Position numbers and translations under genes: made by a program
Shown: positions 7,207 through 34,804 of the stretch, one piece after another
How the letters are laid out: each line of letters begins with the position of its first letter
How positions within the stretch are numbered: position 1 is the stretch's first letter
From: Pseudomonadota bacterium
GTDB taxonomy: Bacteria; Desulfobacterota; Binatia; Binatales; Binataceae
Assembly (NCBI GenBank): GCA_021324855.1
Contig: JAJPIG010000005.1
Coordinates: 1-64,000, forward strand
Reading direction: 5' to 3'
Length of the DNA: 64,000 nt
The notes under the pieces: model-generated
Told to the model about the DNA's origin: nothing
Database searches by the model: none
Seen by the model: the letters and a program-made list of their open reading frames with translations, nothing else

Positions 7207-8262
7207 GTGAGATTCGCGGTCGCGGCGCCCTGCTACATCGATTTCTACCGGCAGGCGATCGAACTCGAACGACTCGGCTTCGACGGCGTATGGCTGTTCG
7301 ACTCGCCGATGGTCCATTCGGACGTTTATGCGGCGCTCGCCCTGATCGCGGTGAACACCGAACGCATTCGGATCGCGCCCGGCGTTGCGGTCGCCCGCAA
7401 TCGCATCGCGCCGGTCACCGCGCACTCGATCGCGACCATCAACCAGCTCGCGCCGGGACGCGTAGCGCTCGGCTTCTCGACCGGCAACACTGCGCGACGG
7501 GCGATGGGGATGCCGCCGGTCGGGCTCCGCGAATTCCGCGACGAAGCAATCACGATCCGCGCGCTGCTCCGGGGCGAAAACGCGCCCTATCGGGAGGGCG
7601 AGCGCGAATCGATCGTGCGTCTCGTGCATCAGCATCACGGCTTCATCCGGCTCGAACCGCGCATTCCGTTAATCATGGGAGCGACGGCGCCGAAATCGCT
7701 CGCGATCGCGGGCGAAGTCGGCGACGGGCTCATCACGTCGGGCGCGAGTCCGGAAATACTGAAATCGTGGGTGGAGATCGCGCGCGCGGCGATACCGCCG
7801 GAGCGCCGCAGCGCTCCCTTTCACATCGCCGCGATGGTCGGCGTATACGTCACCGCATCCGGCGAGACCGCGGATTCGCCCGGTCCGCGCGAGGCGCTCG
7901 GTCCGTGGATAATCGCCCATCTGCGGCTGCGGCTCGACACGTTCAAGGGACCGGCCGACGCGATGGATCCGGTGCTGGCCGAGTTCGCTCGGGAAGTGGC
8001 GAAGCTGCCCGCGCCTAAGCATCTCAGGCTTTACGAGAATTACCAGATCGGCATCGGCGAGAATTTTCGGCGCTTCGTGACGCCCGAGGCGATCAACGCG
8101 ACCTGCCTGTGCGGCCCGCCCGACTTCGTCGCCGCGGGCATCCGCAAGGTCTTCGCGGCCGGGGCCGACGAAGTGATCCTGCGCCCGCACGCCGATGGCC
8201 GGACGCTCACCAATTATCGGCGCTTCGTGGAAACTGTGATGCGCCCGATGCGCGGCAGCTAG
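7207..8262 (+). CDS. LLM-class flavin/F420-dependent oxidoreductase (MER-like)
   Basis: A GTG start gives 351 residues of luciferase-like TIM-barrel. The N-terminal GFDGVWLFDSPMVHSDVY, the NTERIRIAPGVAVARNRIAP strand and LAPGRVALGFSTGNTARRAM are the pattern of methylenetetrahydromethanopterin-reductase-like members. These use F420H2 or FMNH2; the substrate cannot be read from sequence. It starts 16 nt after the glycine-zipper lipoprotein and may share its transcript. Two more LLM genes and cofC elsewhere in the window make F420 use plausible. Confidence 0.85.
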   Translation: MRFAVAAPCYIDFYRQAIELERLGFDGVWLFDSPMVHSDVYAALALIAVNTERIRIAPGVAVARNRIAPVTAHSIATINQLAPGRVALGFSTGNTARRAMGMPPVGLREFRDEAITIRALLRGENAPYREGERESIVRLVHQHHGFIRLEPRIPLIMGATAPKSLAIAGEVGDGLITSGASPEILKSWVEIARAAIPPERRSAPFHIAAMVGVYVTASGETADSPGPREALGPWIIAHLRLRLDTFKGPADAMDPVLAEFAREVAKLPAPKHLRLYENYQIGIGENFRRFVTPEAINATCLCGPPDFVAAGIRKVFAAGADEVILRPHADGRTLTNYRRFVETVMRPMRGS

Positions 8263-19567: not shown

Positions 19568-19583
19568 GAGCTGACACGCGACC

Positions 19584-19623
19584 AAAAAAACGCCCGCTTC
19601 GTCGATCCGAAGCGGGCGTTTTT
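19584..19623. terminator. Bidirectional intrinsic terminator
   Basis: A perfect 13-bp stem AACGCCCGCTTCG/CGAAGCGGGCGTT with loop TCGATC, preceded by an A run and followed by a T run. It lies between the converging coiled-coil gene and mlaA and can stop transcription from both sides. Confidence 0.93.
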
Positions 19624-19644
19624 GTAATCAAAATTTGGCGGCAG

Positions 19645-20463
19645 CTACGGTCCAAACACGGTCCCCTCGTCGACCTTCCTCTGCTGATTTGCGCGCCGCT
19701 GCATGTAACCGTCCTGCACCGCGCCGTAGAGATCGATCGCGTAGCGGTCGACCTCTTCAAATAGATTCAAATGCAGTGAGCGGTAGTTGATCCCGGCCAA
19801 AGCAAACTGGCCGACGTTGGCCGGAATGTAGACATACCACGGTGTCAGCCAATCGAGCGGATTCATCGCGCCGTCCGCGACCAGGCCGACCGTATCGCGG
19901 ATCGTCGATGGTCCTAGGAACGGCAGCACCACGTAAGGCCCGGTCGGCACACCGTAATGGCCGAGCGTCAGCCCGAAGTCGTCGCGATTCTCCTTGAGAC
20001 CGAACCACGTATCCGCAACATCGAACAGCCCGGCGACGCCGAGCGTGGTGTTGATCCCGAAGCGGGCCACTTCCGTGCCGGCTCGCGTCAGACGAAGCTG
20101 GAACAGATTGTTCGCGAAGCGCGGGATGACACCGACATTGCTGAAGAAATTCCCGACGCTCTCACGCGCAGGCCGCGGCACCACGGCTGCGTAGCCGCGG
20201 GCGATAGGCGACACGACGTACTGATCAACCTTGAGGTTGAAGTTCAGCATCGTGCTGTTGAAGGGCTCGAGCGGGTCTGGGTACGGTTGGCCGTTGTTCG
20301 GACCGGGCGGCGGGCCGGAGGTTGGCGGAGGCGATGCGGCTGCGCCGCTTTCACCGGCCATCGCGGGCGACACACAAATCATCGCCGCCATCATGATTAC
20401 CGCCATGAAGCCGCCGAGCGACAAGCCATCGCGAACCGAGCAGCTCTCTCGCTGCAACTTCAT
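19645..20463 (-). CDS. mlaA: MlaA/VacJ-family outer-membrane lipid asymmetry protein
   Basis: Removes misplaced phospholipid from the outer leaflet and passes it to MlaC. The 272-residue protein carries DPLEPFNSTMLNFNLKVDQY, FFSNVGVIPRFANNLFQ, DDFGLTLGHYGVPTGPYVVLPFLGPSTIRD split across its middle; these are MlaA hallmarks. The signal peptide (VIMMAAMICVSPAMA|GES) looks like a type I site, with no lipobox, unlike E. coli MlaA. The start at 20463 has an AGGTAGG site. Last gene of the cofC-mla operon. Confidence 0.93.
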   Translation of the reverse strand: MKLQRESCSVRDGLSLGGFMAVIMMAAMICVSPAMAGESGAAASPPPTSGPPPGPNNGQPYPDPLEPFNSTMLNFNLKVDQYVVSPIARGYAAVVPRPARESVGNFFSNVGVIPRFANNLFQLRLTRAGTEVARFGINTTLGVAGLFDVADTWFGLKENRDDFGLTLGHYGVPTGPYVVLPFLGPSTIRDTVGLVADGAMNPLDWLTPWYVYIPANVGQFALAGINYRSLHLNLFEEVDRYAIDLYGAVQDGYMQRRANQQRKVDEGTVFGP

Positions 20464-20562
20464 TTTGAACCTACCTTCCACCTTCAATTTTTCGGCCCCT
20501 CCCCCGCTCTGGCGGACGCAGCCAACTATAATAGCTTGCAACGGCATTGACTAGTCACGCTT

Positions 20563-21222
20563 TCAGGATTCTCCCAAAGCATTGGCCAATTGCGTACTCT
20601 TTGCCCTGAGATCCGCCATCAAGGTTGGGAAGCCCTTGTTGTTGATCACGCGGTTAAACTGATTGCGATAGTTCGCGATGATACTGATCGAGTCGACTGT
20701 GACATCGTAGATTTTCCACTGACCGCCTATGTATTTCAGCCGATAGTCGAGCGCGATCGGTTCGCCGCCCTGGGGCTGATTCACTTTCGAACTCACCTGG
20801 CTGTAGCCGGGCGCGAGCTGGATGGTCTTGGTGAACGTGACCGTCTGACCCCGGTAGTCCGAAACCTTGCTCAGGTAGGAATCCTCAATGAACTGCGTAA
20901 AGACGCGGGTGAATTCCTGCCGCTGAGCCGGCGTGAGATCGCGCCAATGATAGCCGAGGGCCGAGCGCGACATCTCGGTGAAATCGAAACTCTGCTCAAC
21001 TACGCCGCGTAGCCGCTCCTGTTTCTCGTGTGTTGTCATGTTGCTGCCAAGCACGCTCAGCGCCTGGTTAACCAGCGTCCTGGCGACCGCCGTGGGGTCG
21101 CCGGAATCAGCGCGGGCGGCGATTCCGATCGCTATCGCGATCGATACTGCTGTCAAGCCGCCCAGCGCGCGGCGTACGAAAGAACCACGATCGACGAATA
21201 AGACGCTTCTGTTTCCGTTCAT
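20563..21222 (-). CDS. mlaC: MlaC-like periplasmic phospholipid shuttle
   Basis: The 219-residue secreted protein (signal RRALGGLTAVSIAIAIGIAARA) has MlaC/Ttg2D features: DFTEMSRSALGYHWRDLTPAQ, EFTRVFTQFIEDSYL and GGQWKIYDVTVDSISIIANYR. It carries lipid between the MlaA complex and the inner-membrane MlaFED transporter. It is 11 nt downstream of mlaD and 99 bp upstream of mlaA. Confidence 0.94.
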   Translation of the reverse strand: MNGNRSVLFVDRGSFVRRALGGLTAVSIAIAIGIAARADSGDPTAVARTLVNQALSVLGSNMTTHEKQERLRGVVEQSFDFTEMSRSALGYHWRDLTPAQRQEFTRVFTQFIEDSYLSKVSDYRGQTVTFTKTIQLAPGYSQVSSKVNQPQGGEPIALDYRLKYIGGQWKIYDVTVDSISIIANYRNQFNRVINNKGFPTLMADLRAKSTQLANALGES

Positions 21223-21233
21223 ACTACCCTTAC

Positions 21234-21713
21234 TTATTGTCCTTGCTTTTGCTTTTCCTTTGGAGCTCCCCCCGAGCCCAGACTGTTGATTACCTGACCG
21301 ATCGCATCCTCAAGCACGAACGCGGATTGGGTCTGCATGATTGTGCCGCCGTTGGGCAATGTATCCCCGCTGCCGAGTTGTATGGCAACGTACTTGTCGC
21401 CAATGATGCCACTCGATTTGATCCCGGCGATCGCCTCACTGTCGACCTGCACGCCTTTGTCAATGAAGAGCCCGACATGGGCGCGGTCGTTCTGCAGCGA
21501 GATCGATTGTACATGGCCGACCGGCACACCCGCGATTTCCACCCGGTCGTTGTTCTTGAGCCCGGCAATATTGTCAAAATTGGCGAACAGTACGTAGCCG
21601 GGGCTGCCGAAAATATTGACATTACCGAGCCGGAACGAAAGGAAGGCGAGCGCAGCAATTCCGAGGATTGCGAAGATCCCGACTATAAGCTGAGTCGTGC
21701 GAGTCGCGTACAT
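21234..21713 (-). CDS. mlaD: MlaD, MCE-domain lipid transport subunit
   Basis: 159 residues: one N-terminal membrane helix (QLIVGIFAILGIAALAFLSF) and a single MCE domain (about 38-118: FANFDNIAGLKNNDRVEIAG, GIIGDKYVAIQLG). The hydrophobic C-terminal helix forms the hexamer pore in E. coli. The tail is Gly/Lys-rich. It is 8 nt from mlaF. Confidence 0.94.
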   Translation of the reverse strand: MYATRTTQLIVGIFAILGIAALAFLSFRLGNVNIFGSPGYVLFANFDNIAGLKNNDRVEIAGVPVGHVQSISLQNDRAHVGLFIDKGVQVDSEAIAGIKSSGIIGDKYVAIQLGSGDTLPNGGTIMQTQSAFVLEDAIGQVINSLGSGGAPKEKQKQGQ

Positions 21714-21721
21714 GCTTGCAG

Positions 21722-22522
21722 TTACCCGGTGACTGCCGGGACCTCATCCTCCCCCGACGCTTTCCCTGCGAGAAAGCGTTCGAATGTTTCATCGTGAGCC
21801 GCAGTCACCTCGGCAACCGTGCCATGCAGGCGCATTCTGCCTTCGTGCATGAACGCGATTCGGTCCGAGATCTCGAATACGTCCGGCACGTCGTGGCTGA
21901 CCAGCACCGCAGTCAGGCCAAACCGCTGCTGGGTGCGCCGCACCAGCGCGTGAATCGATCCGATCCGCGTCGGGTCGAGGCCGGTGGTCGGCTCGTCCAG
22001 CATCAAAATGCCTGGCCGATGAATTAGCGCGCGCGCGAGCGCGGCCCGCTTCTGCATCCCGCCGCTCAACTCCGACGGATACTTCTTCTCCATCCCTTCG
22101 AGCCCGACCGCAGCCAGCATCTCGCGCACCCGAGCCGCAATTTCATCGCGGCTGAGGCTGGTCTTCTCGACCAGCGGAAAGGCGACGTTGTCGAACACCG
22201 GCATCGAGTCGAACAGCGCGCCGGATTGAAACAACATCCCGAACTTCTCGCGCACCGCATCGAGCGCGCGCCCGCCGAGCGCCGTGACATCGATACCCTC
22301 GATGACAATCCGCCCTGAATCCGGCCGCAGCAGCAAATTCAGATGCTTCAGAAAAACGGTCTTGCCGCAGCCGCTCGGTCCCACGATCGTGGTGATCTGG
22401 CCGCGCGGAAAATCGATATCGACGCCGCGCAGCACCTCTTGCGCGCCGAAGCGCCGGCGCAGGTCGCGAACCTCAATCGCATTGGCTCCCCCGTTTCGAT
22501 CAACCCCCATGGAACCGCTCAT
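21722..22522 (-). CDS. mlaF: MlaF, ABC transporter ATPase for lipid transport
   Basis: From the ATG at 22522 the protein is 266 residues. Walker A GPSGCGKTVFLKHLN, signature LSGGMQKRAALARAL, Walker B ILMLDEPTTGLDP and the switch VSHDVPDVFEIS are intact. It powers the MlaE permease. The start lies 2 nt past the mlaE stop, so the two are coupled; a longer frame overlaps mlaE and is not needed. Confidence 0.95.
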   Translation of the reverse strand: MSGSMGVDRNGGANAIEVRDLRRRFGAQEVLRGVDIDFPRGQITTIVGPSGCGKTVFLKHLNLLLRPDSGRIVIEGIDVTALGGRALDAVREKFGMLFQSGALFDSMPVFDNVAFPLVEKTSLSRDEIAARVREMLAAVGLEGMEKKYPSELSGGMQKRAALARALIHRPGILMLDEPTTGLDPTRIGSIHALVRRTQQRFGLTAVLVSHDVPDVFEISDRIAFMHEGRMRLHGTVAEVTAAHDETFERFLAGKASGEDEVPAVTG

Positions 22523-22524
22523 CG

Positions 22525-23304
22525 TTACAGAAGTATCGACGTCATAAAATAGTCCCACACCAGTACAAGTACGCTGGACATCACCACCGCCTCGGTGGTG
22601 GCGCGGCTCACCCCGGTCGCCATCCGCTCCGCATGGTAGCCCTTGTAACAGCAGACCCACATTACTACCAGCCCGAAGACCAGCGCCTTGTAGATGCCGG
22701 TGGCGATATCGTGCGCGTCCATGTTCTGGGCAATCCCGTTCAGATAACTGGAGCCCGGCGCACCCATCAAGTCGACGCCGATCACGTAACCGCCAAGAAT
22801 CCCGATGACATCGAAAATCGCGGTCAGCAGTGGAAAGCTGATCAGGCCCGCGATCACGCGCGGCGATACCAGGTACTGAATCGGATTGATCGCCATCACG
22901 GTCAGCGCGTCGATCTGCTCGGTGGCCTGCATTGAGCCGAGCTCCGCGGCCATCGCGGAACCCGCCCGCGCCGCGATCATCAACGCCGTCAGCACCGGCC
23001 CCAACTCGCGCACCAGCGTGAGCGCCACCACTGTCCCGAGGGCGCCTTCCGACTCGAAGCGCCGGAGCGTGTTGTAGCCCTGAAGCCCGAGCACCATGCC
23101 CGTGAAGGTGCCAATCAGCAGAATCAGAAAGGTCGATTCTGCGCCGATGATTCGAATCTGACGAATTGCCAGGCGCGGCTTAAACGGCGGCACTACGATG
23201 TAGAACAACGCAGTAAACAGAAAGATGAAAAAGTTGCCCAGAATGACAACCCCGTCGATAATCAGCGCTCCCAGACGCGCGATCGAAGCGACCACAAAAT
23301 TCAT
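22525..23304 (-). CDS. mlaE: MlaE, permease of the lipid ABC transporter
   Basis: 259 residues with five or six membrane segments. ALTLVRELGPVLTALMIAARAGSAMAAELGSM is the MlaE/YrbE core (about 95-125), followed by EQIDALTVMAINPIQYLVSPR. It forms the inner-membrane channel with MlaF and MlaD. Its start is 10 nt after the stop of cofC, so the operon appears to begin with a cofactor gene. Confidence 0.95.
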   Translation of the reverse strand: MNFVVASIARLGALIIDGVVILGNFFIFLFTALFYIVVPPFKPRLAIRQIRIIGAESTFLILLIGTFTGMVLGLQGYNTLRRFESEGALGTVVALTLVRELGPVLTALMIAARAGSAMAAELGSMQATEQIDALTVMAINPIQYLVSPRVIAGLISFPLLTAIFDVIGILGGYVIGVDLMGAPGSSYLNGIAQNMDAHDIATGIYKALVFGLVVMWVCCYKGYHAERMATGVSRATTEAVVMSSVLVLVWDYFMTSILL

Positions 23305-23314
23305 CGCTAAATTT

Positions 23315-23953
23315 TCAGGCCTGAGCCAAACCGAGACGCGAAAGCTGATTGAAGGTATGGGTCGAACTAGGGATGCGGACGAAGTCAGCCAGGTCGCTCA
23401 TTAAATCGAGGTCCATCGACGGGCCGCTCAGACGCACGATCTCGCATCGGATGCCCGCCTGTTCGCAGCTTTCGAGATGGCGCATCAAACTATGCCGTCC
23501 GAATCGTGTTGCGATAACGTCCGGCGGTCGACGAGCGATCATATTGGTGCCCGAGAGCTCGCGCGAGGGGGCCAACGCCACGCCTTGTTCGTCGTGCGTC
23601 GCAGCGAACATCGCATCGATGTCCGCGCCGGTCACAAGCGGGATGTCCGACAGCACCACGCAGACGGTTTTCGCGCCTTCGGCGATCAGCGCTTCGGTAC
23701 CCAACCGCACTGCGGCATTCAGGCCGCGCGGAAACCGCTCATCAATCGTCATTGCGCCAGCCGCGCGCGCCATCGCAAGCAGCTCATGGTCCGAACTGAC
23801 CAGCGCAACCTGATCCGGCGCCTCGGCACTCATCGCGGCGCTCAGGACATCGCGGAACATCGCTTCGGCCAGCGCTCGGCGTTCGCCAGCCGGCATCGCC
23901 AGCCGGGTTTTGGCGAATTCGAGCTGCTTGGCAGCAATCAGCACGATACGCAC
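23315..23953 (-). CDS. cofC: CofC-type phospholactate/phosphoenolpyruvate guanylyltransferase
   Basis: Activates 2-phospholactate or phosphoenolpyruvate for coenzyme F420 synthesis. The 212-residue Rossmann-like protein starts MRIVLIAAKQLEFAKTRLA, the CofC/FbiD nucleotide-binding start. It has CVVLSDIPLVTGADIDAMF, PSRELSGTNMIARRPPDVI and LDLMSDLADF. A related sugar nucleotidyltransferase cannot be excluded, but NM-rich PSRELSGTN is specific. It heads the mla operon. Three LLM enzymes in the window are possible F420 users. Confidence 0.82.
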   Translation of the reverse strand: MRIVLIAAKQLEFAKTRLAMPAGERRALAEAMFRDVLSAAMSAEAPDQVALVSSDHELLAMARAAGAMTIDERFPRGLNAAVRLGTEALIAEGAKTVCVVLSDIPLVTGADIDAMFAATHDEQGVALAPSRELSGTNMIARRPPDVIATRFGRHSLMRHLESCEQAGIRCEIVRLSGPSMDLDLMSDLADFVRIPSSTHTFNQLSRLGLAQA

Positions 23954-24133
23954 GGCGCTTTCTTATAACGCAAGCTTCACGTCACGCCAAGCCAGGCGGT
24001 CCGCGTCGACTACGATGCTTGACTATTTTTGACCATCCCTCAACATGATGAGAATCGGCTTTTCCCGCCGGGGATCCTGAAGATGATCGAAAGCGCCAAG
24101 TGGAACAGGGGCAGAAAAGGAGTGTGGACGGTG

Positions 24134-25042
24134 ATGCGCAACGCGACTTTTACTTCGTCAGGCTGGATGAAAAGTTTGCTTCCAGCCCGAATCAGGGCCA
24201 GCCTGATGACTGCCGGCTCGATTCTTCTCGCAGCCGGCTTGCTCACCGGATGCGCTCATAAATCGCCTGAAGACTATATAAAGGCTGGCGACCAGGCGAT
24301 GCAATCGTCGGGTTTCTCGCAGGCCGAAGCGGATTATCAACAGGCGGTTCAGCTCGATCCAAACAATGCGCGTGCGCACGTCGCGCTCGCGAATGCCTAT
24401 ATCGCCGAGAAAAAGAACGACGAGGCCAAGGCTGAGCTGATGAAGGCGCTCGAACTCGATCCCAAAAGCGCCGGCGGACACGCCGCGCTGGGAGATCTTT
24501 ACCTCGACGCTGGCGAAACCGGAGCCGCTGAAGAGCAGTATCGCGCCGCGGTGGCGCTGGATACCGGCAATCCCGCATATCGCATCATGCTCGCGCGCGT
24601 CCTGACGCGAACCAACAAGCTCGGCGCGGCCGAAGTCGAACTGCGGACAGCGGTCGGACTGGAGCCGCGCAACGCCGCGGCCCACTATGCGCTCGCATCG
24701 CTGCTGATGGCGGAACCGAATCGCCAGGAAGAGGCGCAGATCGAGATGGCTGCGGCGCAAGCGCTGAATCCCAATCTGGCGACTCCTACGCCAGCGGCAA
24801 CCCCGACCGCGGCCGCCGCACTTGGCGCGCCACCTCCGGCATACAAGGTCCGGCCGATCAGAAAGCGGTTTGAGCTGACCAAGAATTCTCCGGTCTATCA
24901 GAACCCGGATCAGACCAGCGCCGTCCTCGCGCAGGTGCATCGCGGACGCTGGGTCAACGTCATCGGTATCTCGGGCGATTGGCTGCAGATTCGGATGCGC
25001 AACGGCACGGTCGGATTCATCCCCACCGCGGCCGCGGAATGA
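24134..25042 (+). CDS. TPR lipoprotein with C-terminal SH3-like domain
   Basis: 302 residues. The signal LMTAGSILLAAGLLTGC is a lipobox. Then come about five TPR units (about residues 45-215), for example ADYQQAVQLDPNNARAHVAL and AEAKAELMKALELDP-like repeats. A Pro/Ala linker is followed by a bacterial SH3 domain (KNSPVYQNPDQTSAVLAQVHRG...GDWLQIRMRNGTVGFI). It may organise an envelope complex. The start may be GTG 24131 behind AAGGAG, or upstream TTG. It is divergent from the cofC-mla operon. Confidence 0.75.
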   Translation: MRNATFTSSGWMKSLLPARIRASLMTAGSILLAAGLLTGCAHKSPEDYIKAGDQAMQSSGFSQAEADYQQAVQLDPNNARAHVALANAYIAEKKNDEAKAELMKALELDPKSAGGHAALGDLYLDAGETGAAEEQYRAAVALDTGNPAYRIMLARVLTRTNKLGAAEVELRTAVGLEPRNAAAHYALASLLMAEPNRQEEAQIEMAAAQALNPNLATPTPAATPTAAAALGAPPPAYKVRPIRKRFELTKNSPVYQNPDQTSAVLAQVHRGRWVNVIGISGDWLQIRMRNGTVGFIPTAAAE

Positions 25043-32707: not shown

Positions 32708-33736
32708 ATGCGATTAGGCGTGCAGGTCGGCTATTCGGGCGCGCAAGTCAGACTGCCGATTGAGACGATCCAGGAGGCGGAGCGCCTGGGCTTCGAATCG
32801 GTCTGGACCGCTGAAGCCTACGGCTCCGACGCCGTCTCAACCATCGCGTGGATCGGTGCGCTCACCAGCCGCATCAAGCTGGGGACGGCGATCATGCAAA
32901 TGCCGGCGCGGACTCCGGCGATGACCGCAATGACCGCGATGACGATCGATCAACTCTCAGGCGGGCGCTTCATCCTCGGCATCGGACCGTCCGGCCCGCA
33001 GGTGGTCGAGGGATGGCACGGTGTTTCGTACGGCAAGCCGCTCGTGCGGACGCGCGAGTACATCGCGATTCTGCGCAAAATCTTCGCGCGCGAGGCAGCG
33101 GTCGAATTTGCGGGGCATGAATATCAGATTCCGTACAAGGGCGCCGATGCGAGCGGACTCGGCAAACCGCTCAAGAGCATCATCCATGGCCGCGCCGACC
33201 TGCCGATCTACTGCGCATCGGTGAATCCACGCGCCATCGCGCTAAGCGCGGAGATCGCAGACGGGCTGATGCCGATGTGGTTCGTGCCCGAGCGCTTCGA
33301 TCTGTTCAAGCCGCATCTCGAAGAAGGTTTTCGCCGAAGCGGAGGCAAACGGACTATTGTGAACTTCGAGTTCGCGCCCTTCGTGACCTGCGTCGTCGGC
33401 GACGATCTCGACGCGTGCCGCGCGCCGATCAAGGCGCATCTCGCCCTTTACATCGGCGGGATGGGCGCGCGCGATCGGAATTTCTACAAGACGTATACCG
33501 CACGCCTCGGCTATGAAGGCGAAGTGCAGAAAATCCAGGACCTGTTCCTCGCCGGCAGGCGCGATGAAGCGCAGGCGGCGGTTCCGGATCGGTTGGTCGA
33601 TGAAATCGCGCTGGTCGGACCGCGCGCGCGAATCGCGGAACGACTCGAAGCCTGGAAAGCTTCGCCGGTGACCGCGATGCTTATCAGCGCGCGCCAGCCC
33701 GAGGCGCTGCGGATGCTCGCCGAACTCTGTCTCTAA
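32708..33736 (+). CDS. LLM-class F420-dependent oxidoreductase
   Basis: 342-residue luciferase-like barrel: [53 protein letters not shown] and [21 protein letters not shown] match the Rv3520c-like F420-dependent group. The substrate is unknown. RBS GGGAGG at 32697-32702. It sits between rpmA and obg, behind a terminator. Codon use is like its neighbours, so a long-settled insertion is likely. Confidence 0.86.
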
Positions 33737-33787: not shown

Positions 33788-34804
33788 GTGGCGCGCTTTA
33801 TCGATGAGACGAAAGTTTACGTTCGCGCCGGCAAAGGCGGCGACGGCGCGATCGCGTTCCTGCGCGAAAAGTATCGCCCGTTCGGCGGACCCGCCGGCGG
33901 CGACGGTGGACGCGGCGGCGACGTGATCCTCGAAGTCGATGAAGGTCTCCTGACGCTGCTCGATTTCAAGTACAAGCCGCGGCTGATCGCCGGCAATGGC
34001 GAACCCGGTCGCGGCAAGCATCAGTATGGCAGCGCGGGCCGCGATCTCGTGGTGCGCGTGCCGCCTGGCACGCTCGCCTTCGATGAAGAGACCGGTCAGT
34101 TGCTTGCCGACCTGGTGATGCCGGGGAGCCGCGCGGTCATCGCGCGCGGCGGCGCAGGCGGGCGCGGCAATATGCACTTCGCTTCGCCGACCCGGCGCGC
34201 GCCGCGAATCGCGACGCCGGGGACGGCCGGCGAGCAGCGCACCGTGCGCCTCGAGTTGCGGCTGGTCGCCGATGTCGGACTGGTGGGTTTGCCGAACGCC
34301 GGCAAATCGACGCTGCTCGCGGCGCTCACCGCGGCGCATCCGAAAATCGCGCCCTATCCGTTCACCACGCTCACCCCGAACATCGGGCGCGTGATGACGG
34401 CCAGCGGCGAGAGCTTCACGATCGCGGACATCCCAGGGCTCATCGAGGGCGCGCACCTCGGCCACGGCCTCGGCATCCGCTTCCTGCGCCATCTTTCGCG
34501 AACCAGCATTTTGGTCTACGTCCTCGATGCGAGCGGCGACGCCGGGAAGGATTTCGCAATCGTGCGCGATGAGATCGGGGCTTTCGATGCCGCGCTGCTC
34601 GAACGCCCGGCGCTCATTGCGCTGAACAAGCTCGATCTGGTCACTCCCCAGGCCGCGAACCGGCTCGCAATCCGGATCGCGAAGCGCGCCGGCTTACGCG
34701 TCTTCCCCATCTCCGCGATGAAACGCCGCGGCCTTGCCGAGCTCGCCGCCGAACTCGAGCGGATGCTCGGAATCGGCGCGGAAGCGGTCGAATGTCGCAG
34801 CTAA
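33788..34804 (+). CDS. obgE: GTPase Obg/CgtA
   Basis: Ribosome-assembly and stress GTPase. GTG start; 338 residues: Gly-rich Obg fold (1-158), GTPase domain with GLPNAGKST (G1), DIPGLIEGA (G3) and NKLD (G4). Members with 338 aa lack the long C-terminal OCT domain. Its last 13 nt overlap proB. Confidence 0.96.
   Translation: MARFIDETKVYVRAGKGGDGAIAFLREKYRPFGGPAGGDGGRGGDVILEVDEGLLTLLDFKYKPRLIAGNGEPGRGKHQYGSAGRDLVVRVPPGTLAFDEETGQLLADLVMPGSRAVIARGGAGGRGNMHFASPTRRAPRIATPGTAGEQRTVRLELRLVADVGLVGLPNAGKSTLLAALTAAHPKIAPYPFTTLTPNIGRVMTASGESFTIADIPGLIEGAHLGHGLGIRFLRHLSRTSILVYVLDASGDAGKDFAIVRDEIGAFDAALLERPALIALNKLDLVTPQAANRLAIRIAKRAGLRVFPISAMKRRGLAELAAELERMLGIGAEAVECRS

Follow-up and report, generated by a model that had tools for sequence, protein, structure and literature searches.

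The window, a 64,000-nucleotide (nt) stretch at the start of contig JAJPIG010000005.1 (contig C33 in a draft genome of 3.75 Mb and 96% completeness) from a bacterium of the family Binataceae, contains a gene for synthesis of cofactor F420, cofC, at the head of a run of genes for Mla-type lipid transport. All six genes lie on the minus strand. The first, cofC (23315-23953; 212 aa, GTG start), matches the models TIGR03552 and PF01983 for the 2-phospho-L-lactate/phosphoenolpyruvate (PEP) guanylyltransferase of F420 synthesis and is preceded by a promoter-like element (i.e. TTGGCG, a 17-nt spacer and TATAAG; 23962-23990, minus strand) that ends 8 nt before the GTG codon. The permease gene mlaE (22525-23304; PF02405, 269 bits; TIGR00056, over cut-off) follows, and then mlaF (21722-22522) for an ATPase with the Pfam ABC_tran domain, whose top NCBIfam match is MlaF, under that model's cut-off; mlaD (21234-21713) for an MCE-domain protein (PF02470; TIGR04430, 124.6 bits, cut-off 135); mlaC (20563-21222) for a periplasmic carrier (PF05494, 157.7 bits; top NCBIfam match HpnM, under cut-off); and mlaA (19645-20463) for an outer-membrane lipoprotein (PF04333, 223.9 bits). 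The start of mlaA was placed at the ATG at 20463, within a longer open reading frame (ORF) that reaches 20547. Intergenic gaps were 10 nt for cofC-mlaE, 2 nt for mlaE-mlaF, 8 nt for mlaF-mlaD, 11 nt for mlaD-mlaC and 99 nt for mlaC-mlaA, exactly the sizes given in a first-pass annotation of this DNA. Its proposal that cofC heads the mla run was confirmed by the family matches of all six genes and by the survey of gene order described below.

The E. coli Mla genes are ordered mlaFEDCB, with mlaA. The window likewise encodes a permease, an ATPase, an MCE protein, a periplasmic carrier and a lipoprotein, with all five domains found in a single run by Pfam (MlaF as a generic ABC ATPase), but differs in the order E-F-D-C-A, in having cofC at the head and in lacking an mlaB within the run. 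No MlaB (STAS) protein was detected in the run, whose flanks encode a TPR protein and a protein with no family over cut-off; the search for MlaB covered only the run and these flanking genes. Scores fell under the E. coli-type equivalog cut-offs for MlaF (217 against 441 bits), MlaC (57.4 against 195) and MlaA (130.9 against 375) as well as for MlaD, as given above. Judged by these matches, the window mla genes are of the Mla type and lie outside the E. coli subgroup.

The identity of the window CofC was examined using curated models and mapped active-site residues. The protein scored 137.2 bits against TIGR03552 (i.e. F420_cofC; cut-off 105) and 90.8 bits against PF01983 (cut-off 22), and no second CofC over the TIGR03552 cut-off was detected in the genome. 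The partner genes cofD, cofE, cofG and cofH are all present, as a single cofG-cofH-cofD-cofE run on contig C22 that is followed by a polyprenyl-synthase-like gene and contains no cofC; cofH passes TIGR03551 with 457 against 374 bits. A full cofC-D-E-G-H set is thereby placed in this Binataceae genome. In FbiD of M. tuberculosis, PEP and Mg are bound by K, D, T, S, D and D residues (PMC8764529). Their places on the family proteins were mapped indirectly, through motifs and an alignment to 7p97, a 3-phosphoglycerate guanylyltransferase and the closest solved structure to the window CofC. On this mapping, each of K15, D103, T136, S155, D181 and D183 is kept in 39/39 family proteins; the FbiD L92 site is occupied by L and the G163 site by G, as in PEP/2-phospholactate enzymes. 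The latter site is S162 in the 3-phosphoglycerate enzyme and G in all 39 family proteins, which points to PEP or 2-phospholactate as the substrate of the window CofC. The curated match, the mapped residues, the cofG-H-D-E genes elsewhere in the genome and the lack of a second CofC together make it most likely that the window gene serves the F420 pathway. It thus resembles CofC/FbiD in family match and in its mapped PEP-site residues, and differs in heading an mla operon rather than adjoining cofD or cofE.

These data bear on the idea that the protein is a CofC-like nucleotidyltransferase shifted to lipid or surface chemistry, for which weak scores to the TIGR04282, GlmU and MocA models could be cited. 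Those scores amount to 17-25 bits as against 137 for F420_cofC, the mapped active-site residues are intact throughout the family, and the gene encodes the sole over-cut-off CofC in a genome with cofD, cofE, cofG and cofH, so that a changed function is extremely improbable. Grouping with non-F420 nucleotidyltransferases, raised in the first-pass annotation as grounds for abandoning the assignment, did not occur. The F420:NADPH oxidoreductase model for npdG had no match in the genome; the luciferase-like family PF00296 had 82, some of which are fragments of one gene. Three PF00296 members lie within the window (7207-8262, 32708-33736 and from 63621, all on the plus strand), and the protein at 32708, the sole member tested, passes the F420-dependent oxidoreductase cut-off of TIGR03559. 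PF00296 also includes flavin mononucleotide (FMN) enzymes.

A class-wide search of 148 genomes yielded a TIGR03552 match at E ≤ 1e-20 in 116, of which 114 were over cut-off. In a sample of 395 genomes from the phylum, the one further over-cut-off match outside the class was that of G035. Surroundings of cofC were compared at 117 loci, comprising the window, 115 other class genomes and G035, which belongs to the phylum but not to the class. Within Binataceae, a family that includes 'Candidatus Binatus soli' (Binataceae, class Binatia in the NCBI taxonomy), MlaE was found by tblastn downstream of cofC and on the same strand in 38/38 other genomes, and mlaE stands immediately after cofC in all 39 family genomes having a cofC match. 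Conservation of the pair therefore extends well beyond this genome, contrary to the outcome that the first-pass annotation had said would count against it. Two family genomes, of 83% and 53% completeness, gave no match for cofC. Outside the family, tblastn of the surrounding DNA detected MlaE near cofC at none of 78 loci; 17 of these had <2 kb examined on one side and four had <1 kb downstream, so that the absence is firm for 74. A quick tree was built from 116 of the 117 CofC sequences (one of 147 aa was omitted); in it, the Binataceae proteins form one side of a branch with a Shimodaira-Hasegawa-like approximate likelihood ratio test (SH-aLRT) value of 99.

Other families house cofC differently. 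The gene adjoins cofE at 31/31 loci of three families (f5, 23 loci; f116, one; f117, seven). In eight further families (f2, f6, f7, f108, f112, f113, f114 and f115), a CoaD match lies upstream of cofC and divergent from it, at 1.2-2.9 kb, in 42/45 loci, and an RsmD match is nearby in 38/45; two of the three loci without CoaD have <120 bases of upstream sequence, and at one locus both CoaD and RsmD were verified as over their NCBIfam cut-offs. With the mla setting, these make three homes of cofC within the class. In G457 and G035, cofD lies beside cofC, joined in G035 by cofE. CofC in the cof operons of f5, f116 and f117 belongs to the same family as the window protein and, on the residue mapping above, carries E in place of L at the L92 site (31/31). 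By the same mapping, the G163 site is E in 13/45 proteins from the rsmD-coaD home; both replacements may mean other substrates.

The survey also bears on a possible joint requirement for F420 supply and outer-membrane lipid transport, such as an F420-dependent step in the chemistry of membrane lipids, hopanoids or pigments. Retention of the pair across the whole family would fit such a coupling, as would the many PF00296 matches and the one tested member that passes an F420-dependent model. The FMN enzymes of PF00296 weaken the latter point, however, and the other four F420 genes lie apart from mla, cofC has a different setting in each of the other families examined, Pfam and NCBIfam scans found no F420 enzyme in the mla operon, and no paper joining cofC and mlaE was found among the open-licence papers searched. 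A metabolic coupling of this kind is therefore very unlikely to account for the pair.

The history of the junction was reconstructed using the length of the cofC-mlaE gap and a combined MlaE and MlaF tree with f5, f116, f117 and f108 as outgroup. Measured to the projected first MlaE codon, the gap is 7-28 nt in 32/39 genomes and 129-299 nt in the remaining seven; measured to the nearest start codon, it is 3-40 nt in the 30 of 32 small-gap genomes that could be measured and 96-299 nt in 7/7 open-gap genomes. The 32 small-gap genomes form one clade with 99/99 support. The seven open-gap genomes fall into two basal groups and were monophyletic in 0% of 200 bootstrap trees. The simplest history is a single closing of the gap, which accounts for the pattern, whereas an early closed gap would require two openings. 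The suggestion in the first-pass annotation that the arrangement may be historical was largely borne out by the single CofC clade and this simplest single change in the gap.

A candidate for what holds the genes together lies directly upstream of cofC, and is newly noted here. A TTGG...TATAA repeat was noticed by eye in 15 upstream stretches aligned at the cofC start, and the 24 family genomes outside this first set all carry the box. In 39/39 Binataceae genomes, a TATAA or TATAG box ends 6-11 nt before the start codon, and in 30/39 TTGG occurs upstream of it at a spacing of 17 nt (28 genomes) or 18 nt (two); at eleven other spacings, TTGG was found in 0 or 1 of 39 genomes each. Seven control windows further upstream, extending to 132 nt, contained the box in 0, 0, 1, 1, 0, 0 and 1 of 39 genomes, as against 39/39 for a TATAA-type box ending 4-20 nt before cofC. 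A box in that interval was found at 0/31 loci of the cofE home (further windows 0-1), unlike Binataceae, and at 0/43 loci of the rsmD-coaD home (further windows 0-4); cofC starts in these two homes were projected from the window protein and may be some codons off. The comparison omits four of the 117 loci, two with too little upstream DNA plus G457 and G035. The pattern TTGG-N18-20-TATAA has one match in the window against 0.13 expected, with at least one match in 12/100 shuffles, and the strict element occurs three times genome-wide against once for a backward control. Only two of the 26 TATAA/TATAG boxes in the window lie 3-10 nt before an ORF of at least 90 aa (i.e. cofC and an ORF at 33788). 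The possibility that the element is a house style of the genome was rejected on these counts, both genome-wide and before window ORFs.

Comparison with sigma-70 promoters gave a mixed result. Such promoters have -35 and -10 hexamers separated by 16-18 nt; here TTGG stands at a spacer of 17-18 nt in 30/39 genomes and TATAA/TATAG is present in 39/39, but the final T is mostly absent. A standard sigma-70 scan of the window listed nothing before cofC because its rule demands that T. Transcription starts were estimated using the usual distance from a -10 box; with the box in this position, the mRNA would begin at the GTG codon or a few bases before it, and the predicted cofC transcript would be leaderless or nearly so. 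We infer that the TTGG/TATAA element is the cofC promoter. Before mlaE, by comparison, a TATAA-type box is lacking in six of the seven open gaps; the seventh has one, 211 nt before mlaE.

From these observations, a sequence of events may be proposed in which the window cofC is an ordinary F420 guanylyltransferase, working with CofD, CofE, CofG and CofH made from another contig. In a Binataceae ancestor, cofC would have come to stand before the mla operon, with its promoter set flush against the start codon. The mla genes would then have been read through from the cofC promoter, the spacer would have become dispensable and one later deletion would have closed it to a few nucleotides. As no separate promoter is recognisable for mlaE, departure of cofC would from then on have silenced mla. 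The correct explanation is probably that mla became dependent on the promoter of cofC, which locks the pair together through a promoter and not through a metabolic partnership. This account requires no chemical link between F420 and lipids, and the pair looks more like a shared on-switch than shared chemistry. Of the two alternatives offered by the first-pass annotation, the historical one largely holds, whilst a shared need is without direct support: other families keep cofC by cofE or near rsmD-coaD, and the promoter-like element provides a simpler reason. A regulatory variant appears quite unlikely: in it, a promoter specific to the family and giving leaderless mRNA would put cofC first on the mla transcript, such that one switch would tune both synthesis of the F420 tail and repair of outer-membrane lipids, with cofC as the regulated step of F420 supply.

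Whether adjacency requires any such dependence was examined using the neighbours of the unit. As left neighbour, a divergent gene for a TPR/SH3 lipoprotein-like protein (24029-25042, plus strand, predicted start; Pfam TPR and SH3 domains) lies beside cofC in 37/38 family genomes with enough sequence, window included. An exonuclease/UvrC-like gene, whose product scores below both the exonuclease and the UvrC cut-offs, occurs within ~6 kb in 21/33 and lipA is kept in 21/31, again counting the window; the glycosyltransferase that adjoins the window TPR gene was present in 0/32 other family genomes. A plain inherited neighbourhood would hold that cofC and mla stand side by side because this part of the chromosome escaped rearrangement, the pair being neither cotranscribed nor under selection. 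Its strengths are that the TPR gene is kept about as well as mlaE (37/38 versus 39/39) and that cofC-mlaE adjacency persists in the seven genomes with a gap of 96-299 nt. The pair is nevertheless better kept than the outer markers, which were unseen only a few kb out in 12/33 (exonuclease/UvrC-like) and 10/31 (lipA) genomes; the closed gap is 3-40 nt in 30/30 measured cases; and the element is conserved while the surrounding control windows and spacings are not. Simple inheritance is accordingly a fairly unlikely explanation.

Several observations weigh against promoter dependence. The TPR gene is also well kept yet is divergent and unable to share a transcript with cofC, so that adjacency alone is no proof of an operon, and the genomes of the family are related, so that their counts are not independent events. 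Outer markers just beyond the examined DNA were counted as missing. The node joining one open-gap group to the 32 small-gap genomes has 86/74 support. The base after the box is A in 21, G in 15, C in two and T in one of the 39 genomes, leaving the final T absent in 38/39 and, with A or G in 36/39, the box is not a canonical -10 box. A search for TATAA-type boxes would overlook a different kind of promoter before mlaE, and the window genome contains a second MlaE homologue. On the minus strand, a terminator-like site lies within mlaE (23253-23230) and a promoter-like site before mlaA (20553-20525), with both kinds of site near or below the numbers found in shuffled sequence. The mlaC-mlaA gap is ≤50 nt in only 3/14 measurable small-gap genomes, so that a single transcript may not extend to mlaA, and mlaA may have its own transcription start.

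At the other end of the unit, a terminator-like hairpin with a 16-pair stem and a U run (19586-19623, minus strand) lies between mlaA and a convergent gene. The fold of 19578-19630 has an energy of -33.8 kcal/mol (z -8.5), with 0/200 shuffles as low, although a simple terminator/promoter scan of the window did not list it. The span of 20463-23953 given for the operon by the first-pass annotation covers cofC to mlaC and omits the body of mlaA (to 19645), the upstream element and this hairpin.

Elsewhere in the class, cof and mla genes were found at various distances. About 24 kb separate cofC from an mla run in three f7 genomes; in G526, the one of them in which gene order was read, the run is F-E-D-A-C. 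The distance between cofE and mlaE is 14-26 kb in several genomes of f108 and f115, and in two f117 genomes cof and mla are far apart. The two gene sets may belong to one old region of the chromosome. Among the open-licence papers searched, none joined Binatia with F420, and one contained both Binatota and F420. A further 22 genomes of five families (f4, f3, f109, f111 and f110) carry cofE, and four loci read in f4, f3, f109 and f111 (L201-L204) have the order cofG-cofH-cofD-cofE. None of the 22 has a CofC at E ≤ 1e-20 (5/22 by elimination, among the matches listed) except G457, where it is a partial match on a 6-kb contig. PF01983 was searched in 12 of these cofE-bearing genomes, giving no match in five and weak, mostly partial matches of 17-28 bits in seven; five of the seven exceed the 22-bit cut-off, as also occurred in four control genomes. 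If F420 is made where no CofC can be recognised, a different enzyme would have to take its place. A stand-in beside cofG was sought in the CofC-less families and rejected, the neighbours read (i.e. a sigma-54 activator, a hybrid histidine kinase and a ~225-aa protein) including none that is CofC-like; the ~225-aa protein, with no Pfam family over cut-off, occurs at 3/4 loci.

The Binataceae locus would represent a natural example of an unrelated gene becoming locked into an operon, by juxtaposition, loss of the spacer and retention of a conserved promoter-like element. The downstream mla genes appear to depend on this element, and the open-gap state persists in the basal genomes of the family.

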